Assembly (NCBI GenBank): GCA_022821965.1
Contig: JAJECN010000023.1
Span: 62,001-126,000 of the forward strand
DNA length: 64,000 bases
Reading direction: 5' to 3'
Source of the DNA: Candidatus Poribacteria bacterium
GTDB taxonomy: Bacteria > Poribacteria > WGA-4E > WGA-3G
Shown: positions 35,461-50,975 of the stretch, one piece after another
How the letters are laid out: every line of letters begins with the position of its first letter
Position numbering within the stretch: position 1 is the first letter of the stretch
The notes under the pieces: model-generated
Told to the model about the DNA's origin: nothing
The model's input: the letters and a program-made list of their open reading frames with translations, nothing else
Database searches by the model: none
Program-made: the position numbers and the translations under genes

Positions 35461-36555
35461 TTATTGTTGTAATTTTGCTTTCAATTCAGTGAGATCTTTG
35501 TCTATTGATGTTTCTTCGGCATAACTCGCAAACTCACGCTCTGATTTCATATTCTGATATGGAACATCTAATTCAGCTGCGGCTTTTGCTAAAGCGGCTG
35601 CCTCAGTAGCATCTTGCTCCATCTTTAAAAGTGTGTCGAATGATTCGTTGTCTTGTACCTCTTTTAGCATTTCGCGAAGATGTGCTTCGGCGTCAACATT
35701 TCTGTGTTTCGCCGCAACAGTGGCTTTTTTCCCTTCCGCCTCCATAGTTTTTTGCTGGAAATGCTCAAGAAGGTTGCTAAGTTCTCGGACGATCTGTTTC
35801 TGTTCTTCCCATTGCGTTTTGTGTTTATCTGCTAATCGTCGATATTCGTTTCGTTTTTCGAGGTCTTCACGTGCCAAATCCTCACGCTCTGCTTTAAGGG
35901 CAATGAGTGCGCGCTCTTGCCACTGTTCTGCTTGGGCGATAGCACCTTCATAGGCATCCTGAAACTGTTTCTCAACACCGATGGAGGCATCAACCTTCTC
36001 TCGCGCTTCTGAAAGCCTGTTTTTCATCTCAACGATAGTGTTTTCTAAAACTTGCTCAAGGCTTTCGGTTTCAACGTCAACCCCTTCCTGTTCAGGTTCA
36101 TATTTTACAACAACTGTTTCTGCGAATTTATCACCTAACCGTTGTCGTTTATCACCAAGCGTCCATAAAAAGTCCAGTGGTTGAAAGATGCCGGCAAACC
36201 GGCGGAGGAAAGCATCTTTGAAAGTACACGGCTTACTATCTTTCAAACGAATCACTTGTAGTGATAGCAGTTTTTTGCCTATGCCTTGTCCCTTTCTGAA
36301 CCCGTCTATGAAAAGTAGACCGAATGTCCATAAAGCTATATTAAAAAAAACAAAAATCCCAGCGACGAACCCCTGCAAAGGACCTTGCGGTTGACTCCAC
36401 ATTGTTGGAGAAATAAGTTCTGCTATCAAGCGCATAAGGCAGACCGCAATGATTTGGGCAACAGATAAGCAAGTGAAATCTATGAAGAGTGCGTACAAAC
36501 GCGCCATTCGGGATGCCAATTTGAATTTTTTACCTGCAATTTTAATGGACTTCAC
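35461..36555 (-). CDS. RDD membrane domain - PspA/IM30 fusion protein (copy 2)
   Basis: 364 residues with the same two-domain plan as copy 1, and highly similar throughout the helical half (AEREDLAREDLEKRNEYRRLAD, HRNVDAEAHLREML). The RDD half diverges most in the loop between its first two helices. Start taken as GTG at 36555, preceded by AGGA and 7 bases; a TTG at 36561 is possible. 47-53 bases separate it from its neighbours, so the three copies are probably one transcript. Confidence 0.82.
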   Translation of the reverse strand: MKSIKIAGKKFKLASRMARLYALFIDFTCLSVAQIIAVCLMRLIAELISPTMWSQPQGPLQGFVAGIFVFFNIALWTFGLLFIDGFRKGQGIGKKLLSLQVIRLKDSKPCTFKDAFLRRFAGIFQPLDFLWTLGDKRQRLGDKFAETVVVKYEPEQEGVDVETESLEQVLENTIVEMKNRLSEAREKVDASIGVEKQFQDAYEGAIAQAEQWQERALIALKAEREDLAREDLEKRNEYRRLADKHKTQWEEQKQIVRELSNLLEHFQQKTMEAEGKKATVAAKHRNVDAEAHLREMLKEVQDNESFDTLLKMEQDATEAAALAKAAAELDVPYQNMKSEREFASYAEETSIDKDLTELKAKLQQ

Positions 36556-36609
36556 TTTCAAATCCTATAAATCTTTTTGTGTTTGTGCGATACACGTTTT
36601 GATGAACGT

Positions 36610-37782
36610 TCATTTCTGTAGTTTTGTTTTCAATTCGGCGAGGTCTTTGTCAAGTGATGCTTCTTCAGCATAACTCGAAAATTCACGCTCTAATTTCGCA
36701 CCCTGATACGCAACATCTACTTCAACCGCTGCTTTCGCTAAAGTGGCTGCCTCAGTTGCGTCCTGCTCCATCTTTGCCAGCGTTTCAAACGCCTTAGTGT
36801 CTTGAATTTCTTTCAGCATCTCACGAAGATGGCTTTCGGCATCAATATTTCTGTGTTGTGCGACGACGACTGCCTTTTTCCCTTCAGCTTCCGTCATCTT
36901 CTGTTGAAGATGTTCAAGAAGGTTGCTGAGTGCTTGAACGACCTGTTTCTGTTCTTCCCACTGCTTTTTGTGCTGGTCTGCCAATTGTCGGTACTCGTTT
37001 CGTTTTTCGAGATCTTCGCGTGCCAGATCTTCACGTCCTGCTTTGAGGGAGATAACAGCGCGTTCTTGCCACCGTTCTGCTTGAGTAACAGCTCCTTCGT
37101 AGGCTTGCTGAAATTGCTTCTCAACGCCGACAGAGGCGTCAACCTTCTCGCGCGCCTCTGAAAGCCGGTTTGTCATCTCAGCGATGGTATGTTCTAAAAC
37201 CTTCTCTGGATCTTCAGTTTCAACCTCAACTTCCTCCAGTTCAGTTTCAAGTTTCACTACAACCGTTTCTGCTAATTTATCCCCCATCCGTTGCCGTCTT
37301 TTTCCGAATGTCCAGAAAGCATCCAAGGGTTGAAAGACTGATGTGAGTCGGCGAATAAAAGAGTCCTTGAGAGTGCACGGTTTACCATCTTTCAATCGGA
37401 GTACTTGTAATGATAGCAGTTTTTTGCCAATCCCTTGTCCATTTTTGAAGCCGTCCATAAAAAATAGACCCGCTGTACACAAGGCAGTGCCTCTCCAAGC
37501 GAAGGTCTGGAAATCACTATTCACCCACGGTCCGAAAAGAAAAACTAAAAGCAGCTGAGCGACAACCAAGGCACTTCTTGGTAGTTTGGTTTTGGGACCT
37601 AGTATCCATAGTAATGCACTGAACAACCCAATCAGAATAGGACCAGAACTCACTGCTTCCAAGAGAAGGAACAGAATCAATAGAATACTCGCGAGGAACA
37701 TTCCATCTATGAAAAACGCAAACAACCGCGCCAGTCGGGATCCTAATGTAAATTCTCTGCCCGCAATTTTAATGGACTTCAT
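36610..37782 (-). CDS. RDD membrane domain - PspA/IM30 fusion protein (copy 3)
   Basis: 390 residues, first gene of the probable three-gene operon. The RDD half is the most divergent: about 25 extra residues with an additional hydrophobic stretch (residues 55-85) between the first helix and the FMDGFKNGQGIGKKLLSLQ block. The PspA half again shows GREDLAREDLEKRNEY, HRNIDAESHLREML and the acidic-helical end DKDLAELKTKLQK. No other Psp genes (pspBC, pspF) are adjacent. Confidence 0.82.
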   Translation of the reverse strand: MKSIKIAGREFTLGSRLARLFAFFIDGMFLASILLILFLLLEAVSSGPILIGLFSALLWILGPKTKLPRSALVVAQLLLVFLFGPWVNSDFQTFAWRGTALCTAGLFFMDGFKNGQGIGKKLLSLQVLRLKDGKPCTLKDSFIRRLTSVFQPLDAFWTFGKRRQRMGDKLAETVVVKLETELEEVEVETEDPEKVLEHTIAEMTNRLSEAREKVDASVGVEKQFQQAYEGAVTQAERWQERAVISLKAGREDLAREDLEKRNEYRQLADQHKKQWEEQKQVVQALSNLLEHLQQKMTEAEGKKAVVVAQHRNIDAESHLREMLKEIQDTKAFETLAKMEQDATEAATLAKAAVEVDVAYQGAKLEREFSSYAEEASLDKDLAELKTKLQK

Positions 37783-40330: not shown

Positions 40331-40966
40331 ATGGAAACACTTAAATTGCTCATATTTGTTGGTACAGAAGGTATTTATCACGATCATGCAGGAAACGGAC
40401 AGTTCTTGACATCAATGCTCAACGATACCGGCGAAATTGCCTCTGATTTCTCGCAAGACTACAATGTGCTTGCTGATGGGCTTAGCGGATACGATACTGT
40501 CCTGTTCTATACGGATGTCGGGGAACTCTCGGAGGCACAAGAAATGGGACTGCTCAACTATATCCGAGCGGGTGGTGGATTTTTTGGACTGCACACCGCG
40601 GCTGCTTCATTTAGGGAATCTGAAGGCTACCACGGTATGCTCAACGGATTTTTCAACGGACATAGCCCGTATATGGACTTCACGGTTAATGTGAGTAACA
40701 GTGGGCATCCGATTACCGAAGGATTAGCCGATTTTGGGGTGACGGATGAACTCTACTACCTCAAACACAATCCTGACACATCACACCACCTGATGCATGC
40801 TTATGACGAGACAAAAGATGAAACGCATGTTATGGCGTTCCACCATACGTATGGCGAGGGTAGGGTCTTTTACTTCGCGCTCGGACACGATATGGCAGTG
40901 CTTGAAAATCCAAGTTTTCAGACGGTTATCCGCCGCGGTGCGTTGTGGGCAGGCAATCGGCTATAG
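40331..40966 (+). CDS. ThuA-like protein
   Basis: 211 residues from the ATG at 40331. Typical ThuA features: LLIFVGTEGIYHDHAGN at the N-terminus, the Gly-rich YIRAGGGFFGLHTAA loop, MDFTVNVSNSGHPITEG, and VMAFHHTYGEGRVFYFALGHD near the C-terminus. ThuA proteins have a class I glutamine-amidotransferase-like fold and are linked to trehalose or other disaccharide use, but the reaction is unclear. It follows the dehydrogenase by about 100 bases. Confidence 0.88.
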   Translation: METLKLLIFVGTEGIYHDHAGNGQFLTSMLNDTGEIASDFSQDYNVLADGLSGYDTVLFYTDVGELSEAQEMGLLNYIRAGGGFFGLHTAAASFRESEGYHGMLNGFFNGHSPYMDFTVNVSNSGHPITEGLADFGVTDELYYLKHNPDTSHHLMHAYDETKDETHVMAFHHTYGEGRVFYFALGHDMAVLENPSFQTVIRRGALWAGNRL

Positions 40967-41032
40967 ATGCGTTGGGCTGTGGTGGACAGCATGGATGTGT
41001 GTGGGTTCTTGGTAGGTTCCGTTATATTTTTT

Positions 41033-41061
41033 TTGACTTTTTTTCTTAAATTTTTTACAAT
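41033..41061 (+). promoter_or_regulatory. Promoter of the TGT/PglZ/HerA operon
   Basis: TTGACT (41033-41038), exactly 17 bases (very T-rich), TACAAT (41056-41061). The predicted transcript starts near 41068, only about 3 bases before the first ATG, so the first gene may be read from a leaderless mRNA. Confidence 0.65.
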
Positions 41062-41070
41062 GATTATCAA

Positions 41071-41331
41071 ATGGATGAACCGATGCCAAATTCCCGATCC
41101 ATAACCCAACTTGCAGCTTATTGGAAACGAAATGGGCTCAGCACGCGCGCCAGTTATGTTCTTGCCAAAGCTGGTATATCGGAGACACAGTTGGTAGCGT
41201 ACCGTGAAATATCGGCACTCTTATGTTTGAAAAACTGCGGTTCCGAAACCGCCAAAGAAATCTGGGATTTTATGGCAAACTCAGAACGAGAAGTGAAAGA
41301 GGTGAAATTTGAAAAGCTCATCCCGAACTAA
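41071..41331 (+). CDS. Small RNA-polymerase alpha-CTD-like (helix-hairpin-helix) protein
   Basis: 86 residues. Residues 23-68 follow the alpha-subunit C-terminal domain pattern: LSTRASYVLAKAGI (helix 1 with Arg and the K-x-G-I turn), then the ALLCLKNCGSETAKEIWDFM block, equivalent to the LL-x-L-x-N-x-G-x-K/T-x2-E-I helix-hairpin-helix of alpha-CTD. It could bind DNA or RNA, or contact transcription proteins. No ribosome site lies upstream and the promoter ends 10 bases before the ATG; an alternative ATG at 41083 exists. It overlaps the next gene by 23 bases. Homology is by eye and moderate. Confidence 0.72.
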   Translation: MDEPMPNSRSITQLAAYWKRNGLSTRASYVLAKAGISETQLVAYREISALLCLKNCGSETAKEIWDFMANSEREVKEVKFEKLIPN

Positions 41332-42889
41332 GTTTGTACCTGTAACGCCAAACGAGATTCAACCTGTAACGATCCGCTATGCCCGTGAAACAGATGTAGC
41401 CGGTGCAAAGGATCTCGCGGACCGGCATCGGATGGAATTAGGCTTTGTTCGGGTATCCGTGCTACACGAAGCACAAAAAAAGAAATGGCTCCTCGTCGCC
41501 ATTCGGGATGAACAGGTCATCGGTTTCGCTAATTTCCGTATTCGTCAGGATAAAAACGCCACGCTTTATGATATTGTTATTGATGAGTCCTATCGTAAGC
41601 AGAAAATCGGGAAACGGCTTATACAACGCTTAACGTGGTTAGTGAACGTAGCTGGAGGCGAACATATTCGACTCAAGTGCCCCCAATCTCTTCCAGCAAA
41701 CGCGTTTTACGAGAAACTGCAATTTACACGGACAGATACCGAAATCGGGAAAAAGCGTCCGTTAAACGTATGGCACTACTTCCTCAAACCATTGCCCCGG
41801 CGGTTTGAATTCAATGAGAACGGTGATGGATTTTTACACAGTCCACCAGATCATTCCCCACATTTTTTCGCTTCAGCAACGATTGCCCCTGGAGAAATAC
41901 GAAAGATCTACGAACTCTGGCATGCGCATGCCCACGATTTTGAGTGGTCCCGAGGTAAACCGAATCCATTTCAACGGTTGTTAATTTCACCTGTACTTGC
42001 TAGCTCTTCAACACTCGCGTTTGTGCGTGAACTTAAGCGGAGCGGTGAAACGGAAGAAGTCATGTTCGATTCCGGTGGTTTCTTCGTCCAAAAGGGGGAT
42101 ATTACTTATAACGAACTCTATTCAAAATTACGTGAGGTTTACCAGACAGAAGATTGGGCGGATATCTACATTTTGCCAGACAATCCACCATTGAGTAGGG
42201 ATTCTATGTCTGACGCTGAAACTAAAATCCGACAGACAGTTGATGGAAGTGTTAGTTTTGCTTACCAATTGCCGTCTGATCTCCGTGGAAAGGTGATGCC
42301 AGTAATCCATGCCAAACAGCCTGCACACCTGGAGTTTTGTCTGCAAAACTATGAAGTTTTAATGGCGGACTCACACCGGATCGGTTTCGGGTCTTTTTCA
42401 ACCATGGGCACCACGAATTCAATTAACCGGGTCAATGTGGATGTGTTGCGTTTGCTTGATGATTTAGTCCCGCGACTCAATGGGAGTCGGCTTCATAGTT
42501 TTGGAATTTCAACGCCCCCCGCTGTTTTCTGTTTAGCAAAGGTGGGTGTAAAAACTTTTGATTCCAATGGTTGGATGCGGACGGGTGGTTATGGGTCTAT
42601 ATTTTTTCCGTTCATGTATGGTAGGCGGATTGATTGTAAAACTCGTAAATACTCTCGTATTCATAAGGATGAGTTTGAACCCCTAAAATTGAACATTGGA
42701 CATCGATGTCCATTTTGTGAGTCCTTTGATAAACTAGCAGAGGAAAGTGGGCGGTGGTTTCGGATTATGCATAACCTAATAGTCATGGCAGAATTAGGGA
42801 CTTACAACTACCAACCACAATGGAATATCCTCGAAGAGTACTCCGAACATTATTACCGAATGCTTAAAGATGTGCAAATATCAACATAA
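41309..42889 (+). CDS. GNAT acetyltransferase - tRNA-guanine transglycosylase-like (DpdA-like) fusion
   Basis: 526 residues. Residues 20-160 are a GNAT domain (TIRYARETDV; acetyl-CoA loop RKQKIGKRL at 96-104; ANAFYEKLQF at the end). From about 222 the protein follows the TGT fold: SPVLAS, MFDSGGFF (Asp254, equivalent to the base-binding Asp), LPDNPP (Asp291), GSFSTMG, then HSFGISTPP and VKTFDSNGW (Asp418, position of the nucleophile). A zinc site H465-x-C467-x2-C470 ... H488 (HNL) replaces the usual C-x-C-x2-C ... H. The archaeal-style FDS motif and operon partners suggest DNA or RNA base exchange like DpdA. TTG start with GAGGTG upstream, overlapping the previous gene. Substrate unproven. 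Confidence 0.8.
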   Translation: MKSSSRTKFVPVTPNEIQPVTIRYARETDVAGAKDLADRHRMELGFVRVSVLHEAQKKKWLLVAIRDEQVIGFANFRIRQDKNATLYDIVIDESYRKQKIGKRLIQRLTWLVNVAGGEHIRLKCPQSLPANAFYEKLQFTRTDTEIGKKRPLNVWHYFLKPLPRRFEFNENGDGFLHSPPDHSPHFFASATIAPGEIRKIYELWHAHAHDFEWSRGKPNPFQRLLISPVLASSSTLAFVRELKRSGETEEVMFDSGGFFVQKGDITYNELYSKLREVYQTEDWADIYILPDNPPLSRDSMSDAETKIRQTVDGSVSFAYQLPSDLRGKVMPVIHAKQPAHLEFCLQNYEVLMADSHRIGFGSFSTMGTTNSINRVNVDVLRLLDDLVPRLNGSRLHSFGISTPPAVFCLAKVGVKTFDSNGWMRTGGYGSIFFPFMYGRRIDCKTRKYSRIHKDEFEPLKLNIGHRCPFCESFDKLAEESGRWFRIMHNLIVMAELGTYNYQPQWNILEEYSEHYYRMLKDVQIST

Positions 42890-42905
42890 CGTTAAAGGAA
42901 ACAAT

Positions 42906-43730
42906 ATGTCCCGAATACATATTCTCAAAGGATTTTCTGATGTCGATAGTGCCTTATGGGTTTTGAAGTATCATCCGGGTCCCCGAAGTCGTTCGGATTT
43001 GGTGCAAATAGTTCGTGACAAAGGTTATATGGTAGCAAATGAAGATTATGAAATCATTCTGTTATTAATTAAATGGGGAATTGCCCGACGCACTCCATCG
43101 GAATTAACTCACAAAGGTAAAGAGTTTTATGCCTTGTGGGAAAGGAATCGAGATGTGGCTATTGACATACTACACGGGTTGCAATACGGTTTGTGGACAA
43201 AACACTTGCGGACTCAAAATACAGAGTCTTGGTCTTATCGAGAGGTTTGTAATTATCTTTGGGATTCTGATGCCTTACCCAAAAAGGATGACGTTATCAG
43301 TCATATCTATAATAGCCTCTCATATCTGGAAATAGATCCAGAAAAGGCGGCGTTTGACGGTAAATCTGTGAATCATGCCTACGATTGGCTTTTACCACTT
43401 TCTCCACTAATGCTTGAGGGAGTCAGAGAAACAGCAAACGGCAGAAATTTCAGGAATGCCACTTTTAAACGGCGCTCTCACTGTTCTACAGCGTTGTTTC
43501 TAATGGGATTGGATTGGGTTGCTAGGGAATCTGGAAACACCTATGGAGATTTATGGATGATTGGAGAGGAACAGAGACGGCAAGTTTGCCGATTCTGTTT
43601 AATTGACGAGACGCGGTTTGACTTCATGTTCAACGAAACGCTTCGCCGCTTTTCTGCTTACTTATCTGTTCGCAGATCTGGTGGTCTTTATATTGTTATT
43701 AATAATGAACCACAAATCTCTGATTTTTAG
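42906..43730 (+). CDS. Uncharacterised winged-helix-like protein of the TGT/PglZ operon
   Basis: 274 residues from the ATG at 42906, which has AAAGGAA upstream. Residues 13-80 look like a winged helix: ALWVLKYHPGPRSRSDLVQIV, then an IILLLIKWGIARRT recognition-like helix and LTHKGKEFYALWE. The rest is mostly helical with a C-R-F-C pair near residue 219. I do not recognise a named family; a protein of this size and plan accompanies DpdA in Dpd clusters, but I cannot confirm homology. It starts 16 bases after the TGT-like gene and ends 17 before the large ATPase. Confidence 0.75.
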   Translation: MSRIHILKGFSDVDSALWVLKYHPGPRSRSDLVQIVRDKGYMVANEDYEIILLLIKWGIARRTPSELTHKGKEFYALWERNRDVAIDILHGLQYGLWTKHLRTQNTESWSYREVCNYLWDSDALPKKDDVISHIYNSLSYLEIDPEKAAFDGKSVNHAYDWLLPLSPLMLEGVRETANGRNFRNATFKRRSHCSTALFLMGLDWVARESGNTYGDLWMIGEEQRRQVCRFCLIDETRFDFMFNETLRRFSAYLSVRRSGGLYIVINNEPQISDF

Positions 43731-43747
43731 TTTACGGAGTTATTTTT

Positions 43748-46700
43748 ATGTCATTACACGAAATTTATAAAAAAGAACCTACTGTAGCTACGCCCTCGGT
43801 TTATAATTTAGTATCTGCACCAGAAATGTGGGATCGTAAATTTCACTTTCATGTCAGCACTCATATATCTATTGGGAATTTACGGAACCGGTGGGACGCT
43901 ATCATTAACAATCTCCTGAAAAAACGTTCTGTAACCGGTTTGATCTACGCAGATAAAGGTTACGGTAAAACTTCTACCGGTATTTCTTTATGGCAAGCAG
44001 CGGAGGCGAAACAGATTGTCACAGTCCCCCCATTTGTCTGGGGGAGTCTTGCTGATATGCTTACGGCGACGCATGCATGGATCTGCTATCGTTTGCAAGA
44101 TACACGACCTGAACTTATCCATGATATCGAGCAAAAACATCGAGAGATAGTTGAAGTTGATGAAGAAACGTTGGCACAAAGGTTAGTCCAAGAGAATAGC
44201 TTATCTTATGATCAGGCTCGCAACACGATTAATCACTTGAGAGAAGCAGGTCGACTTTTAGAGGTTTTGTCTCCACACCAACTTTTGGACTACCTCCGTT
44301 TTACAACGCAAATACTTCTAAGATCAGGTTACAACGGTCTCTTAATGCTGCCCGATGAGTTTGAACTTTTTAAGACGAATCCTGACATATCACAGAATTA
44401 TCAGAATCTCAAAGACTTTATCTTCGGACTTTATGAAGAAGAAAACTTCCCAATTGGATGTGTTGCCTTCACCTACAATCGCACATTTGCTGATATTGAG
44501 CTCAGAGCAAGTCATATATTAGATCGGTTTAATAAGCCCGAGGGGAGTCAGATTAACTTAGAGCAACTTTACGGGCAAACAGATTTTGCAAAGTATTTGT
44601 GGGAGAAATTGTCCGGAACACTTCAACTGTCGCCTTCAGAACGTAATGCTGTAGATACGGATGTTTTAGAGGCACTCGGGCAATTTTTACGCCATCCGCG
44701 ATCACGTGAACTTATGAGTGGTCCCCGTTCAGTTGTGAGGACATTTAATCGTGCAGCACAACGTTATATTGAAAGTAATAGACCCTATTCTATTTTTGAT
44801 TTTTGTGATGATTATCTTTCTGGAAATATCAGTTACGGATCACAAGAAAGTGAAACAGCATCAGCCTATAACCAGATAATAGGATTACCAATTGTTCGTA
44901 ATACAACTGATGGTGATAAAATTGTTAAGTTACTCTGTGTACATCCAGAGGGGATACCACCGGAGTGCTTCCAGAAGTACGGTATTCCTGAGCAGGCTAA
45001 AGATGTCGTTATCCAAGATCTCCTTGGGGATCATGTTAATATAAAAGTCACAGGACCGGCTCTAAAAATATATCGAGACGATTTGTTGGGCGTAGATGAA
45101 CTTAATGAAATTCTTAAAATGCTAAGAGGGACGTTTAGTCCAGCAGATAAAGAGTTCCACCGCGCTGCTGTGCGTGCTTTTAGCAGGCATATCCTCTCTG
45201 AAATTTTGACGAAAAAGACAGGAGCTAGCCTTGGATGGGTTATTACCGAAACAGATGGAAATTTTGGATTTCATTGCAGATTGGATGCAAAAGGCACAGT
45301 TTTGTCAGATTATCCTGATAGAACATTAACCATTGATGTTGCCACAGAAATTCTCTCGAATTTCCCAACATCCGACAGCCAGTTTCGGACACAATTTACT
45401 TTGGACACCACTAACCAGGTAGACAACGCTTGTTGTATTACAGCAAAGAGTCTTGATTTTCGTTTTAATGTACAGCAACCCATTGACGCTCAACGAGTAC
45501 CAGAAGACATCGGTAAACTAGGAGAATTGTTCCTTCCTGAATTCATAACACCACTGCTTTTACTTTCTATCTTGGATTTTTTTGATGATGATTCAATAGT
45601 TTCTATGGTGGAATCTGCAAAACAGGAAGCCGAAGTTGGGTTTCTTAAAGAGCGAATTCGTAATGAACTGATCCATTATTTTTTTTCACCTGAAATTAAG
45701 ACAGAGGTTTACTTTGATCCAGTTGAACTTTCTACGGATTTTCAATCGGTGACTGCCGGAAAAGACTTCGTTGAAAATGTTTTACGAATTTTAATACCAA
45801 AGCAATTTCCTGACTATTCTGCGGTTGCCACGGCAGCGCAATGGAAAAGATATTTGGATGCATATAAGCTCGCACTCAGCAACATTCCTACGCTTGCAAT
45901 TAGACGCGGAATTGAGCCCATGGCAATGGCTAATTCCGATGTTCCAGGACATTTTGGATTGAGCGGCATCTCCGCTTTTCGGAATTTCAATAACGTTGTT
46001 GGACGCGAGTTGTTGAGATTTGAGGACAGTACTGGGCGGCAAGTCGAAGTTACAAGCAAACAAGAACAAGTAAATGTTTTGTTTACGCTTCATCGATTTG
46101 AAAAGCGACTCGTAGAACAACTTGAGACCAATTCCACAACTATTATTGTTGATGGGCAGGTTGTTAATGCAATAACGCTTCCTTTCGTCCATGAGTATGC
46201 TGCTAAGCTTGGTTATGCCAAGGACGAAATTAATGAGTTAGTAGATATTCTTAATACCCGCGGTATAATCAAGACCAAAAGCGAAATTGGTATGGAGCAT
46301 CTCTATATCGCCGATGTCTCTATCAATTTTTCCGAATTGGAAGCAAAATTGAGTAATATTGAGGACGTGATTAAATTAGCAGAATCTAAGGGGTTTGACT
46401 ATCAATATGACGTTCTCACCTCTGTCCGTAATCTCATCCAGACTGGGGGCATTGAAAATGATGAGGTACAAAAAGAGGAGTTGCGTCAAAAATTGAATTC
46501 GACAGAGAGGAACTTTGAGCAGTATTGCCGCAATATGATTATCACCGAGCAGAATTGTCTTGAACAACAGATTACCGAACTTGAGACACTTCGCCTTCCG
46601 GTTCCTAAAGTTTTAGGGCAGCAAACTGATTATCCTCCAGTAGATTTCAGCCAAATCCTTTTTGATGATATCCAAAACCATGTGAAACGTGCTTATGTAA

Positions 46701-47710
46701 GCCTTTCTGATGAAATTACGAAAATTCAGTCGAAAGTGCGAGATATGGTTGATCGTGAAGTTGAAACTTATGAATCAGATCAGACACTATTCAAAGCAAT
46801 TGAGACAGCTGATCGATTGAAATCGGAACGAATTAAAGTTGGCACGCAAATTAAAAATCTGAGTAAGAGACAGAATGATACCGAAGAATTATTCCAACTT
46901 TTCGATCCGTGGAGACAGCTAGCGCGACAGTGCCATAACGATAAACGCTCAATGGAAAACAGTCGCGAAGATATGGAAGTCGGCAATCTAATTGATAGGT
47001 TAAATGGTGTTGTGGGCGAGATAAGACAACACCTTTCTGAAAAACGCCAAAGCCTTAAAGATATTTTAAGCAACAGTGAACACTTCAAGTTAAAGATTGA
47101 TAGCATTAATTCCGAATTTGGTACATATGAAAAAGGTAAAGAAAATGAATTTATCAAATATCAAGATAACCTTGAGAATCTTTTGCGGAAACTCTTTGAG
47201 AAACCACATATTGGCGTAAGTTGGAATCCTGCTGATCAAGATGGATGTTACAGGGACACTCGGCAAAAGGTTGTTGAAAAGTTGTTAAAGGAAGTTATAG
47301 GCGAAGCGAGACGGCAAATTGATAGCCTCAACCGTGATTTGCGGCAGCCAATTGATATTCTTGCTGTCCCTGATGAATTAAAAGATAAATCAGTCGCTTT
47401 ACGTCAAGATCTACAGACGTGTGACAAAAAATTCTTGGCAGTCCGCTCGGAACTGACTATTGAGCAAGTTGACACTGAATTAGAAAATTGGGTGTCTACA
47501 TTGATTTCCCTACGCGAAGCCGGTAGAACATACTTGAAGAGATGGGAGAAAATTAACGAGGATATGCAAAGGTTTAGAAGTGCTCTAAGCCAAACAGCAC
47601 AAAGGTTACATGATGCTGTAAACCCACTGATAGAGGATGGCACTTTCCCTTCAGCACGCGCAATTGTTGAATGCTTAGAGGAATTGTATGAATTGCGGTC
47701 AAACGTTTGA
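43748..47710 (+). CDS. 1320-residue P-loop ATPase with C-terminal coiled coil (BrxC/PglY/DpdH-like in plan)
   Basis: Residues 68-75 are a Walker A motif (ADKGYGKT); LLMLPDEFELF has the Walker B Asp203-Glu204; ASHILDRF at 254-261 may hold an arginine finger. Residues about 280-900 contain mixed helical and beta segments with winged-helix-like parts. Residues about 900-1300 are strongly charged heptad-rich helix, giving a coiled coil of SMC-like appearance. Size and N-terminal ATPase with a very long helical tail fit the large ATPases of BREX and Dpd systems, but I cannot establish which family. GGAG lies 8 bases before the ATG. It is clearly AT-rich. Probable motor or sensor of the system. Confidence 0.8.
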   Translation: MSLHEIYKKEPTVATPSVYNLVSAPEMWDRKFHFHVSTHISIGNLRNRWDAIINNLLKKRSVTGLIYADKGYGKTSTGISLWQAAEAKQIVTVPPFVWGSLADMLTATHAWICYRLQDTRPELIHDIEQKHREIVEVDEETLAQRLVQENSLSYDQARNTINHLREAGRLLEVLSPHQLLDYLRFTTQILLRSGYNGLLMLPDEFELFKTNPDISQNYQNLKDFIFGLYEEENFPIGCVAFTYNRTFADIELRASHILDRFNKPEGSQINLEQLYGQTDFAKYLWEKLSGTLQLSPSERNAVDTDVLEALGQFLRHPRSRELMSGPRSVVRTFNRAAQRYIESNRPYSIFDFCDDYLSGNISYGSQESETASAYNQIIGLPIVRNTTDGDKIVKLLCVHPEGIPPECFQKYGIPEQAKDVVIQDLLGDHVNIKVTGPALKIYRDDLLGVDELNEILKMLRGTFSPADKEFHRAAVRAFSRHILSEILTKKTGASLGWVITETDGNFGFHCRLDAKGTVLSDYPDRTLTIDVATEILSNFPTSDSQFRTQFTLDTTNQVDNACCITAKSLDFRFNVQQPIDAQRVPEDIGKLGELFLPEFITPLLLLSILDFFDDDSIVSMVESAKQEAEVGFLKERIRNELIHYFFSPEIKTEVYFDPVELSTDFQSVTAGKDFVENVLRILIPKQFPDYSAVATAAQWKRYLDAYKLALSNIPTLAIRRGIEPMAMANSDVPGHFGLSGISAFRNFNNVVGRELLRFEDSTGRQVEVTSKQEQVNVLFTLHRFEKRLVEQLETNSTTIIVDGQVVNAITLPFVHEYAAKLGYAKDEINELVDILNTRGIIKTKSEIGMEHLYIADVSINFSELEAKLSNIEDVIKLAESKGFDYQYDVLTSVRNLIQTGGIENDEVQKEELRQKLNSTERNFEQYCRNMIITEQNCLEQQITELETLRLPVPKVLGQQTDYPPVDFSQILFDDIQNHVKRAYVSLSDEITKIQSKVRDMVDREVETYESDQTLFKAIETADRLKSERIKVGTQIKNLSKRQNDTEELFQLFDPWRQLARQCHNDKRSMENSREDMEVGNLIDRLNGVVGEIRQHLSEKRQSLKDILSNSEHFKLKIDSINSEFGTYEKGKENEFIKYQDNLENLLRKLFEKPHIGVSWNPADQDGCYRDTRQKVVEKLLKEVIGEARRQIDSLNRDLRQPIDILAVPDELKDKSVALRQDLQTCDKKFLAVRSELTIEQVDTELENWVSTLISLREAGRTYLKRWEKINEDMQRFRSALSQTAQRLHDAVNPLIEDGTFPSARAIVECLEELYELRSNV

Positions 47711-47721
47711 CAACCTATTAA

Positions 47722-48270
47722 ATGAATTGGTTAACCTATCATAAACAACTCTTAAAATTAGCGGAAACGATGGAAACGCTAATGCCTTCTCAAATTTCCG
47801 CGCGAAATGTGCTTCTACTTGCTATTCAAACATGGGAACCATACATCAATCTGTACGGACCACCCGGTGTTGGGAAGACTTTTATTGTCCACTGTTTGCA
47901 TCATTGCACTGACCTCCTCTATTTTTCGGATCCGACTCGTTACAACGCCTCTGTTTCCAAAGAGTGTGCTGTGGCAATTGACAATGCACCGCACACCCGC
48001 CAAGAAGCACGCCGACTTTATGATAGGATCCGATGGGGACAAAAGGATTATACCGGTCCAAAGAATGTTATCTTAATCACGCGCCAACCTATTGATGATG
48101 ATATACGGAAGATTGAACTAACATTGACAGACATTGACATTGCCCATATAGAAAACATCATGCGCCAACAATTCGGTAAATCTGATTTTGAGGACTTCAG
48201 TGAGTATGCTCAGCAACGTTCAGGCTTGTGGTGGTACATCAAAAACCTTTGTTGTAGCATAGAATGTTAG
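47722..48270 (+). CDS. Small AAA-type ATPase, 3' end inside a dispersed repeat
   Basis: 182 residues. Walker A GPPGVGKT (46-53), Walker B AVAIDN (Asp87), and a sensor-like VILITRQP (about 115-122). It lacks the usual lid domain. The last six codons and the TAG stop lie inside a 25-bp sequence (48252-48276) that recurs with one difference at 63695-63719, so the natural C-terminus may have been replaced by a repeat insertion. It starts 11 bases after the large ATPase with no clear ribosome site, suggesting coupled translation. It may be a clamp-loader-like partner of the large ATPase (inference). Confidence 0.78.
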   Translation: MNWLTYHKQLLKLAETMETLMPSQISARNVLLLAIQTWEPYINLYGPPGVGKTFIVHCLHHCTDLLYFSDPTRYNASVSKECAVAIDNAPHTRQEARRLYDRIRWGQKDYTGPKNVILITRQPIDDDIRKIELTLTDIDIAHIENIMRQQFGKSDFEDFSEYAQQRSGLWWYIKNLCCSIEC

Positions 48271-48276
48271 TCTGTG
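48252..48276. repeat. Dispersed 25-bp repeat copy at the end of the small ATPase gene
   Basis: TTGTAGCATAGAATGTTAGTCTGTG differs from 63695-63719 at one base only and from 63665-63689 at a few. The other copies form TAGxx(C/T)xAGxCTxxTAG-type hairpins; here the changed base weakens the stem. It supplies the stop codon of the ATPase gene. Confidence 0.8.
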
Positions 48277-48370
48277 TGCTTATGCGTCCGCAAATGAACA
48301 GTTTACAGCGAAAAAAACGCATATCGCCGTGATTCTCATGGAAATATAGGAAGTTGCTTGGGAGGTTATC

Positions 48371-48553
48371 ATGTTAGTGAAAAGACTTTTTGAAAAACTC
48401 GAGCACCGGAGACTCGAAAAAGCTCGTTTAGAGGGGGTATCTGAAGGCTTATCCGAAGCACAGAAAAAACATGCAGAATGGGTGGAATGGGCTAAAAACG
48501 GTCAGGATAAGCCGCAACCCAAACCCCCAAAAGCTCCAGAGACGGATAGTTAG
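48371..48553 (+). CDS. 60-residue charged helical protein
   Basis: Strong GGGAGGTTATC ribosome site before the ATG supports expression. The first about 45 residues are a charged amphipathic helix (KRLFEKLEHRRLEKARLEG ... EAQKKHAEWVEWA) and the tail is Pro/Lys-rich (QPKPPKAPETDS). No family recognised. It lies within the operon, between the small ATPase and PglZ genes, and could be an adaptor; it may instead be unrelated. Confidence 0.65.
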   Translation: MLVKRLFEKLEHRRLEKARLEGVSEGLSEAQKKHAEWVEWAKNGQDKPQPKPPKAPETDS

Positions 48554-48595
48554 GTAGACACACTCTCTGGGCCCGAGCACAAAGGACAGAATGAA

Positions 48596-49690
48596 ATGGC
48601 ACAGCAATTGTGCACAATCCCCTGCATAACTGAAATCCCGGAAAACTATCGTGCCTTGTGGGAACTTTGCCTTACCGATGTGTGGTGTCCAGCATCGCTT
48701 GAGGAGTGGCGAGAGCGAATTGACTCACCTCGCCAAATTGATGCAGATTCAACACTTTTTGTGAATTTATCTCCTTCAGACCGAGAAGAATTAACACAGG
48801 TTTTCGGTTTTCCGACAGTTGAATTTCCAGCACTTCCTTCAATGGAACAGGTCAATGAGGCATTGCCAAACCGTTTTGGGACAATTCATCTATTCAAACA
48901 GTCTGATGTCGCTGCAGAAATTACAAAACGGATTCATCAGGAATTGCCACAGATCGTCGTTCTATTGGTTTTCGATGGCTTATCCTTTTATGATGTCGTA
49001 GATTGGAAACTACCCCAAGCTACACTGGAACCGTGTCTTGTAGATGGATTAAGTGTCACGAATAGTGCTATGCAACGACTCATCGGTTCACCTGTTTTAA
49101 CACATAGACTTTTTGGGATGGGATATATCCGGCGATTGGGTTTTTCATATTGGGAACGCGCAGCAAATGTATTAACCGACGCGCTTTTTGCTGAGTTTCC
49201 ACCGAACCAACTGCATCGCATGACAACCTTTGATGAAGTTTTAAAGACAGTAAAGGCATCCAGATGGTCAACACATACCTACATTCAGATTATCCGTTCT
49301 GGACTTGATGGGGTTTGCCATGCTAACAGAGAACGCCCAAATATTAAGTCGATTCTTAACGATCTAAAACGAGATATTTTATCGCTTCTTGAGGTCTTAC
49401 AAGCAACTGAGAAATCATTTCGTCTCTTCATTACTGCCGACCATGGGATCCTTTGGTACGCTGACCAAGACATCATTCCGTTGGCACAAGAGAAATTCAA
49501 GGCACGGTATACTCACGGATCTATCGCACGAGGGGATAACCAGCTAACGCTGAATACCGATGAGGGCACCTACACCGTTTTAACTGGCGACAAAGTTATC
49601 GCGAAACAGCGTAAAGTGACAGAGTGGGGTTTTCACGGTGGAGTCTCAGCACAAGAATCATTAGTCCCATTTTGGGATGTCCGTCAATAA
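48596..49690 (+). CDS. pglZ: PglZ-domain protein (alkaline phosphatase superfamily)
   Basis: 364 residues, shorter than BREX PglZ proteins, made up mostly of the catalytic domain. Metal and active-site residues: Asp127 (LLVFDGLSFYD), Thr155 in LSVTNSAM as probable nucleophile, Asp238 and His242 (GLDGVCHA), Asp282-His283 (ITADHG), and His347 in the hallmark HGGVSAQESLVPF. All expected metal ligands are present, so catalysis is likely. PglZ is the signature protein of BREX and Pgl phage-defence systems, though its substrate is not established. It lies 17 bases before the HerA-type ATPase. Confidence 0.88.
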   Translation: MAQQLCTIPCITEIPENYRALWELCLTDVWCPASLEEWRERIDSPRQIDADSTLFVNLSPSDREELTQVFGFPTVEFPALPSMEQVNEALPNRFGTIHLFKQSDVAAEITKRIHQELPQIVVLLVFDGLSFYDVVDWKLPQATLEPCLVDGLSVTNSAMQRLIGSPVLTHRLFGMGYIRRLGFSYWERAANVLTDALFAEFPPNQLHRMTTFDEVLKTVKASRWSTHTYIQIIRSGLDGVCHANRERPNIKSILNDLKRDILSLLEVLQATEKSFRLFITADHGILWYADQDIIPLAQEKFKARYTHGSIARGDNQLTLNTDEGTYTVLTGDKVIAKQRKVTEWGFHGGVSAQESLVPFWDVRQ

Positions 49691-49707
49691 AGTGAGAATA
49701 ATTTATA

Positions 49708-50916
49708 ATGGCTGAAGTGAATCTACGAGTCGGGACTGACTACGAAACTGAAGATATAGCGTATATCCGAGCAACTGGTTCTCGTGCCGTGTTTATCTGT
49801 GGGAAGCGAGGTTCCGGAAAAAGCTACACACTCGGCGTGATTGTTGAAGAATTGTTCGCGCAGGAACGCGGAAAAGCCGTTCTAATTATCGCCGATCCGA
49901 TGGGTATTTATCACACGATGGTTTCGGCGAACGAAAGCCAATCGGATGAAGTTCGACAGGCGGGATTGCTAACTGAAGGGTTTCCTGTCCACTTGGTTGT
50001 TCCGGGGGATCCGCTTGCCTGTTTCGGAGATGCACAAATCCTTAACAGATTGCAAATGAATGGCGTTGAGGTAACATCATTGTGGGTTAATGCTCATGAT
50101 TTGTCAGCGGATGCTTGGTGTGAACTTTTTGATCTGGAAATCAACAACGCTATGGGAATAGCGTTGTGGCGGGCGGTGGATACCCTTCAGGAAACCCGCG
50201 AACATTTTAATATTTCGGATATATTGAAGGCACTCCGTAAAGATACGCGCGCTAAAAGCACCACAGTAGAAGCACTCGAAAATCGTTTGACAGCTGCGCA
50301 AAGGTGGGGATTTTTCTCTGAAGAACCAACCCACTTAACGGATGTATTTTCCTTGGAACATATTAACGTTTTGGATTTAAGTGTTATTGATGCAGGCACT
50401 AAAGGATTGCGGAATTTAGTGTTGGATATTGTTGCACGACGGTTGTTTACAGAACGGACGCGGATGCGCCGACGCGAAGAATTTGGAATGGAAACAAGTC
50501 TTCCCCGAGTTTGGATGGCAATTGACGAAGCACATCAGTTTATACCGCAGGGCAAGGGGTCCTTATGTAAAGAGATGTTAATCCGTTGGGTTAAAGAGGG
50601 ACGCCAGCCCGGACTGAGTCTTGTCGTCGCGACGCAACAACCCTCCGCAATTGATTCTGAATTGCTTTCGCAGTGCGACTTGATTATGGCACATAAAATT
50701 ACGACATGGGATGACATCAACGCCCTTGATCGACTAAGTGCAACGTATATGGAAGGCGATTTAAAGGGATATATCCGGCAACTTAACCGGCGTGGCGAGG
50801 CACTTCTGGTTGATGACGAGACCGAATCTGTTAACACAATCCGTGTCCGTCCGAGACGTAGTGCGCACGGCGGGGCTGAAATTCAGGAGCAAACAGCGAG
50901 TCGCTCCTTTTTCTAA
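49708..50916 (+). CDS. HerA/FtsK-type hexameric ATPase
   Basis: 402 residues. Walker A GKRGSGKS (32-39), Walker B WMAIDEAHQFIP (Asp273-Glu274), sensor TQQPSAIDSEL, and the DUF87/HerA C-terminal pattern LIMAHKITTWDDINAL. HerA-type rings translocate double-stranded DNA and in many defence systems pair with a nuclease or other effector; no NurA or nuclease gene follows here. Last gene of the operon. An inverted repeat lies 25 bases downstream. Confidence 0.88.
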   Translation: MAEVNLRVGTDYETEDIAYIRATGSRAVFICGKRGSGKSYTLGVIVEELFAQERGKAVLIIADPMGIYHTMVSANESQSDEVRQAGLLTEGFPVHLVVPGDPLACFGDAQILNRLQMNGVEVTSLWVNAHDLSADAWCELFDLEINNAMGIALWRAVDTLQETREHFNISDILKALRKDTRAKSTTVEALENRLTAAQRWGFFSEEPTHLTDVFSLEHINVLDLSVIDAGTKGLRNLVLDIVARRLFTERTRMRRREEFGMETSLPRVWMAIDEAHQFIPQGKGSLCKEMLIRWVKEGRQPGLSLVVATQQPSAIDSELLSQCDLIMAHKITTWDDINALDRLSATYMEGDLKGYIRQLNRRGEALLVDDETESVNTIRVRPRRSAHGGAEIQEQTASRSFF

Positions 50917-50941
50917 GAGGCTATCTGTGGACAGTTAGTAA

Positions 50942-50966
50942 AAGGGTGGATACAGAATCCACCCTT
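50942..50966. terminator. Palindrome closing the operon, between convergent genes
   Basis: AAGGGTGGAT (50942-50951) pairs perfectly with ATCCACCCTT (50957-50966) around a 5-base loop. No long T-run follows, so it may be a bidirectional terminator or a dispersed palindrome. Confidence 0.55.
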
Positions 50967-50975
50967 ACATTGGCA

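Follow-up and report, generated by a model that had tools for sequence, protein, structure and literature searches.

The host of the locus, Candidatus Poribacteria, is a sponge-symbiont bacterium. The window analysed here, a stretch of 64,000 nucleotides, sits on a 148-kb contig of a 5.7-Mb genome and contains an island of about 10 kb between thuA and a sulfatase gene. This site is empty in seven of the eight same-genus relatives tested. In the relatives L112-L118, which carry adh-thuA-sulfatase without the island, thuA and the sulfatase gene are adjacent, with a gap of 77-264 bp in the five empty junctions inspected; blastn matches between empty junctions and the window stop at about 40962 and resume at about 50971. 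The island holds an operon of seven co-directional genes (g0-g6), the second of which encodes a GNAT acetyltransferase domain fused to a TGT-fold transglycosylase domain.

40963..50970, no strand: island of about 10 kb between thuA and the sulfatase gene
41071..41331, + strand: g0, first gene of the operon, small helix-hairpin-helix protein resembling the C-terminal domain of the RNA polymerase alpha subunit (PF03118 E 0.0017, under cut-off)
41309..42889, + strand: g1, GNAT-TGT fusion, 526 aa (ORF call, Pfam, AlphaFold, Foldseek, alignment)
42870..43730, + strand: g2, SspB/DUF4007-like putative DNA-binding protein, 286 aa (AlphaFold, Foldseek, profile-profile comparison)
43748..47710, + strand: g3, BrxC-like ATPase, 1320 aa (PF10923 BrxC_BrxD E 0.0045, under cut-off)
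47722..48270, + strand: g4, P-loop/AAA (putative STAND) ATPase, 182 aa (PF13191 AAA_16 E 0.0023; PF00004 AAA E 0.0034)
48596..49690, + strand: g5, PglZ-like protein, 364 aa (NCBIfam BREX_PglZ_2 E 3.1e-4, under cut-off; PADLOC PglZ E 0.0016)
49708..50916, + strand: g6, HerA/FtsK-type translocase, Mad8-like (PF01935 E 5.9e-12, over cut-off)

The same seven-gene set recurs in other Poribacteria (L022-L025, L041); g0 is 85-95% conserved in relatives. The translocase g6 is also recognised by PADLOC as HerA (E 8.7e-24) and mad8 (E 9.6e-23). The AlphaFold model of g2 (pLDDT 71) has SspB (6juf) as its top Foldseek match (probability 1.00, E 0.016, TM 0.49), and the protein has no Pfam match, the DUF4007 profile included. 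A homologue of g3 in Haloplanus matches PF10923 BrxC_BrxD over the cut-off (E 2.3e-6); the DUF6079 profile does not match g3, and sequence searches of g2 and g3 against the PDB gave no useful match. The PglZ-like match in g5 is weak and confined to the C-terminal part. The assignments of g5 as PglZ, g4 as STAND and g2 as DUF4007 are accordingly weak. The small g0 possibly has a larger relative in an 858-aa protein (L053:2398-4974) encoded upstream of the Promineifilum BRC operon, which shows RpoA-CTD-like, sigma-70 region 4-like and PglW/MzaA-like matches. Outside the island, at 35461-37782 on the minus strand, the window encodes two paralogous membrane proteins in tandem, alike in their coiled-coil C-termini.

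The g1 gene starts with a TTG codon within the 3' end of g0. GNAT profiles match its residues 58-140 (PF00583 E 1.7e-12, PF13508 E 2.4e-12), and the best matches are protein acetyltransferases, RimI by profile (E 9e-10) and Ard1 by Foldseek. The TGT profile PF01702 gives only a weak sequence match (E 0.036, 13.6 bits, under the gathering cut-off of 26.3). In the AlphaFold model (mean pLDDT 75, pTM 0.62), the N-terminal part resembles Ard1/RimI GNATs with a TM of 0.74-0.80 by target, and the remainder is matched by crystal structures of TGT enzymes, with 4gi4 ranking first (E 1.2e-9, probability 1.00, TM 0.60 by target). By sequence profile, the DNA-guanine transglycosylase 7ui4 comes closest among PDB entries (E 0.0045). 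An earlier sequence-only reading had proposed a GNAT domain in front of a TGT-fold enzyme at 41309-42889; Pfam bears out the first part, and structure prediction yields the TGT fold, not another one.

41363..41788, + strand: GNAT domain of g1, about residues 19-160 (PF00583 E 1.7e-12; Foldseek to Ard1/RimI)
41864..42886, + strand: TGT-fold domain of g1, about residues 186-526 (Foldseek to TGT structures E about 1e-9; 7ui4 by profile)
42068..42070, + strand: codon of Asp254 (FDSGGF), aligned with the general-acid/base Asp of TGT
42179..42181, + strand: codon of Asp291 (LPD), aligned with the base-binding Asp of TGT
42560..42562, + strand: codon of Asp418 (FDS), aligned with the nucleophile Asp of TGT
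42701..42772, + strand: zinc block H465-x-C467-x2-C470 ... H488 (alignment)

The genome encodes a separate canonical Tgt, which speaks against a canonical tRNA Tgt role for g1 and served as the reference for its active site. Asp254, Asp291 and Asp418 share alignment columns with D95 (DSGGF), D149 (base-binding) and D268 (FDC nucleophile) of that enzyme, and H465, C467, C470 and H488 with its zinc ligands C306, C308, C311 and H337. The three aspartates and the zinc-block positions are invariant among g1 relatives of 31-95% identity. A chance resemblance of the TGT half was ruled out, since the fold matches and every motif stays unchanged even where identity is about 31-37%. Both the catalytic positions and the His-for-Cys zinc site (H-x-C-x2-C ... 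HN) picked out in the sequence-only reading thus hold up in alignment. The histidine is present in all 16 members of one DNA-TGT clade (support 98/97), and is therefore read as a clade signature, not decay; this also disposes of a degenerate or defective zinc site. Two bacterial DpdA enzymes (L110, L111) keep C-x-C-x2-C, as the genome's canonical Tgt keeps the cysteine. Judged from the alignment, the His zinc ligand marks a single well-supported DNA-TGT clade, a feature that is new as far as the searched literature shows. A further difference lies at His334 of g1, which takes the place of the canonical base-binding Gln (V-Q-G); phage 9g DpdA, which puts preQ0 into DNA (PMC6884629), also has His there in the alignment. 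Overall, g1 has the fold and catalytic aspartates of bacterial and archaeal Tgt (PF01702), but differs from them by its low identity in structural matches (about 12-14%, under the Pfam cut-off), its His zinc ligand, its fused GNAT and its defence operon. A phage origin of the window protein was considered and dropped, as no match was found among 50,697 phage records.

The GNAT domain was also said to keep an acetyl-CoA loop. The domain is real, but its loop is only partly canonical: it reads R96-K-Q-K-I-G101 in the window haplogroup, with Lys for the first Gly of R-x-x-G-x-G, and the full motif is present in several relatives. The GNAT of this module carries a dedicated, conserved signature (ADxHRxELGF, CPxxLxANxFY).

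The composition of the operon matches that of BREX-Related Capture (BRC) systems, described by Rakesh and Krishnan (NAR, January 2026; PMC12839542). In the accessible text of that paper, the HerA/FtsK translocase is universal, GNAT and TGT occur in a subset of loci, GNAT is "occasionally fused with TGT", and DUF4007 is equated with SspB. The novelty of the GNAT-TGT architecture, which the sequence-only reading could not place among standard TGT or DpdA descriptions, therefore does not stand. The window operon has the translocase (g6), the BrxC-like ORC/Cdc6 ATPase (g3, over the cut-off only in the Haloplanus homologue) and the subset feature of GNAT and TGT, here fused in g1. Shared with BRC, as far as that text goes, are the BrxC-like ATPase, HerA, GNAT and TGT in one operon and, less surely, PglZ, a STAND-type ATPase and a DUF4007/BrxA-like DNA-binding protein; the window operon differs in having the extra RpoA-CTD-like g0, and DUF6079 and DUF4007 were not found in it by Pfam profile. 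Given this composition, the SspB-like fold of g2 and the equation of DUF4007 with SspB, we treat the locus as a BRC member.

Two other defence systems are related. Dpd (DpdA, PDB 7ui4) also has a TGT-fold enzyme with the catalytic aspartates in a defence island, and 7-deazaguanine chemistry is likely common to both. However, the NCBIfam DpdA model NF041059 (cut-off 200 bits) gave no match to g1 at E<=1 and 26.6 bits for one relative, ruling out a full-length match to the DpdA models. The DpdA zinc site is C-x-C-x2-C, in contrast to H-x-C-x2-C in the g1 clade, and a GNAT partner stands in place of DpdB and DpdC: profile searches found no DpdB (ParB-like) or DpdC (DUF328) domain among the operon proteins. 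With the phosphorothioation modules of Ssp/BREX type 4 (SspB, SspC, SspD) the operon shares an SspB-like protein, a BrxC/SspC-like ATPase, a DNA-modifying enzyme (here a probable one) and adjoining machinery of putative PglZ type, the transglycosylase and acetyltransferase replacing the sulfur-transfer SspD/BrxP. Another TGT-centred cluster of Poribacteria (L032:8346-13655, L033, L034, L038, L039, L040) may represent a distinct defence system based on DNA modification. Its archaeal-TGT-like enzyme of 400 aa lacks the zinc cysteines and is accompanied by a DUF6884/YaaA protein resembling DpdC, a BrxD-like ATPase and a protein with a PIN domain. Poribacteria also encode apparent DpdC-DpdA fusions of about 590-640 aa (L076:484-2409, L079:1045-2805), YaaA/DUF6884-like by eye at the N-terminus and DpdA-like with C-x-C-x2-C at the C-terminus.

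No defence TGT of the clade lacks a GNAT, which is either part of the same protein or encoded by its own gene in the operon. Fusions are seen in the window group, in Oscillatoria and in most of the Druantia copies; separate genes occur in Promineifilum (L053, E 9e-46), in two more genomes of the same phylum (L105, L106) and in Haloplanus (L094), where the GNAT is no more than a distant relative of the others (E 2.6e-6). The tree requires at least three fusion/fission changes of the GNAT, indicating that the TGT and GNAT genes stayed together throughout. No GNAT of the module type was found within the 53 kb searched near a sister TGT encoded by a phage; the tree positions of this phage TGT and of phage 9g DpdA are unsure on account of their long branches. 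The constant pairing of defence TGTs with GNAT is new as far as the searched literature goes. A protein of about 670 aa with a GNAT at its N-terminus and a long, unassigned C-terminus (L036:7117-9129, L037:8911-10911; the L036 copy beside an Eco57I-type methyltransferase) was checked as a module member and found to be unrelated.

The same enzyme occurs beside a different defence system. Druantia type IV consists of DruE, DruF and DruL, and its published description names only these and no modifying enzyme (PADLOC, PMC8565338). Relatives of g1 lie in Druantia type IV-like operons with DruE (PADLOC 1574 bits), DruF-like and DruL-like genes (L026-L029, L057-L059, L061, L095, L105, L106; at least five phyla), the three genes not being visible at every locus since some contigs or retrieved stretches end first. 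The hosts are four Poribacteria, an Acidobacteria MAG, a proteobacterial MAG, an Isosphaera MAG and a cyanobacterial plasmid; further copies come from two genomes of the Promineifilum phylum and one IMG/VR contig. The stretch separating the TGT from the Druantia genes encodes homologues of g2 (hhalign 99.8%, E 1.4e-28) and g3 (hhalign E 2e-110). By contrast, a PADLOC search found no DruE, DruF or DruL in the window operon. On the tree, BRC-side and Druantia-side TGTs are intermingled, and BRC as a single clade is rejected (p-AU 0.008, to be read with caution for long branches). The presence of a module of TGT, GNAT, SspB-like protein and ATPase in Druantia type IV-like operons of at least five phyla is new with respect to the searched literature, in which Druantia, transglycosylase and acetyltransferase are nowhere treated together and which covered few subscription papers. 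Some TGT-Druantia operons also encode a protein of about 660 aa between the ATPase and DruF (L057:15982-17955, L061:7336-9351, L107:8617-10617), with weak UvrD/STAND-like helicase matches in the L057 and L061 copies. Among 85 genomes of the phylum, the BRC-type copy is found in eight (one in fragments) and the Druantia type in four; samples of 301 to 398 genomes from four other phyla, each of which included a known carrier, have the gene in one to three genomes per sample.

The window genome encodes QueC and QueF, so that preQ0 and preQ1 are available in the cell; the sequence-only reading had named queC among the genes that would bear on its proposal. QueC scored over the cut-off in 16 of 17 carrier genomes, and queF in all carriers tested bar the same one, a 2.2-Mb Promineifilum MAG that may be incomplete. 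In Poribacteria the preQ0 genes lie elsewhere in the genome and serve tRNA as well. Linkage in relatives is stronger evidence on the base. On a Haloplanus plasmid, queC, queE and queD are directly beside the BRC locus, and in the Acidobacteria Druantia copy queD lies 38 bp upstream of the GNAT-TGT gene and queE and queC at a distance of about 9 kb. The GNAT-less sister TGT is encoded together with folE, queD, queC and queE on a 144-kb contig of a Poribacteria MAG, whose phage nature is evident from portal and head proteins, a primase and DnaE. This linkage of relatives to preQ0 genes is new by the literature searched. Besides this complete set of preQ0 genes, the phage contig (L030, L090, L091, L120-L122) encodes its own DNA polymerase III alpha and beta subunits and a thymidylate synthase, and its TGT has the same H-x-C-x2-C site.

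Comparison of six operons uncovered a sharply bounded block of divergence within otherwise conserved genes.

About 42450..48050, + strand: allelic cassette of the C-terminal third of the TGT, g2, g3 and the first part of g4 (identity and DNA scan)

The GNAT and TGT barrel are 90-98% identical in all pairs (GNAT 90-93% across haplotypes) and HerA is 93-97% identical. Between haplotypes, identity falls to 67-69% in the TGT after residue 400, 51-63% in g2, 47-55% in g3 and 65-76% in g4; the corresponding values within haplotypes are 97-100%, 87-95%, 93-97% and 74-94%. A DNA scan places the edges near 42450 in the TGT and at about 48000 in g4, with well-conserved flanks. This pattern points to block exchange between haplotypes rather than fast drift. 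A common target for modification and recognition would lead one to expect the TGT C-terminus to co-vary with g2-g4; the cassette fits a unit whose TGT C-terminal domain and recognition proteins must match, and it may set the target sequence. L041 is a further mosaic within g3. Its copy of the BrxC-like ATPase gene is broken into two ORFs and diverges in its 3' part (L041:5004-8975), which suggests decay or recombination. The allelic cassette is new as far as searched literature shows; it, the HxCxxC signature and the preQ0-gene linkage are all absent from the BRC description in the accessible text of PMC12839542.

Taken together, g1 is probably the DNA-modifying enzyme of a BRC-type anti-phage system, making a 7-deazaguanine self-mark finished by acetylation. 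Action on DNA is suggested by the nearest profile structure, the DNA-guanine transglycosylase 7ui4, and by the separate canonical tRNA Tgt. The TGT domain would replace guanine in the host's own DNA with a 7-deazaguanine, either preQ0 or preQ1, supplied by the queuosine pathway of the cell; g2 (SspB-like) and g3 (BrxC-like) would take part with it in selecting the sites. The GNAT would acetylate the inserted or incoming base, the most plausible acceptor being the aminomethyl group of preQ1. The marked base would identify self, and unmarked invading DNA would be captured by HerA and attacked through PglZ. The base-exchange role proposed in the sequence-only reading is plausible given the TGT fold, the three aspartates and queC/queF in the genome; its suggestion that a base or precursor is acetylated and then exchanged gains from the constant TGT-GNAT pairing and from queC/D/E beside relatives. 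Base acetylation as the finishing step is itself credible, if not quite probable. Several points count against the model: the lack of DpdB/DpdC among the operon proteins, the Promineifilum carrier without QueC and QueF, His334, the Lys in the acetyl-CoA loop, the unlinked preQ0 genes in Poribacteria, the distant Haloplanus GNAT and the weak assignments of g5, g4 and g2.

The acetyltransferase step is where the main alternative departs. The DNA base exchange could be the same, with the GNAT acetylating a protein (the TGT, a partner or a phage protein) and plain dPreQ0 or dPreQ1 as the mark. The similarity of this GNAT to RimI and Ard1 and its occurrence as a separate gene in some loci agree with such a role, and the BRC authors, in the accessible text, propose dPreQ0 alone as the mark (PMC12839542). 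We nevertheless consider it unlikely, since the two genes remained together through at least three fusion/fission changes and the dedicated GNAT signature points to a substrate tied to the TGT. Alternatively, the fusion could be an abortive-infection effector, its TGT acting on tRNA during infection and its GNAT working like tRNA-acetylating toxins. TGT family enzymes mostly act on tRNA, and some GNATs are toxins that acetylate aminoacyl-tRNA. This reading is rendered quite improbable by the closest solved relative being a DNA enzyme, by the phage sister enzyme being encoded with preQ0 genes, by the DNA-handling partner proteins and separate tRNA Tgt, and by the failure to recognise an antitoxin-like gene. 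Removal of guanine from invading DNA to leave abasic sites, for which base-excision restriction enzymes offer a precedent in the accessible text of PMC10273834 and the altered incoming-base pocket (His334 for Gln) an argument, is very improbable, as a PglZ-like effector is already present in the operon, no TGT residue needed for covalent exchange has been lost, the preQ0-inserting phage 9g DpdA has the same His and queC/D/E adjoin relatives.

Returning to the self-marking model, a bolder and rather doubtful extension is that TGT, dedicated GNAT, SspB-like protein and BrxC-like ATPase form a portable module that writes an acetylated 7-deazaguanine, for example N-acetyl-preQ1, into host DNA and serves two unrelated effectors, PglZ/HerA in BRC and DruE in Druantia type IV, with its specificity switched by a cassette that includes the TGT C-terminal domain. 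To our knowledge, no acetylated 7-deazaguanine has been reported in DNA. In BREX-like immunity, a base-exchanging enzyme would fill the slot of a methyltransferase or phosphorothioation enzyme, and the TGT-GNAT module is common to BRC and to Druantia type IV, where no modifying enzyme figures in the published description. Should the GNAT indeed acetylate the inserted base, the product would be a novel modification of DNA and a self-mark of a new kind. Which base is used and which protein sets the sequence can be tested directly, thanks to the queC/D/E linkage and the allelic cassette.
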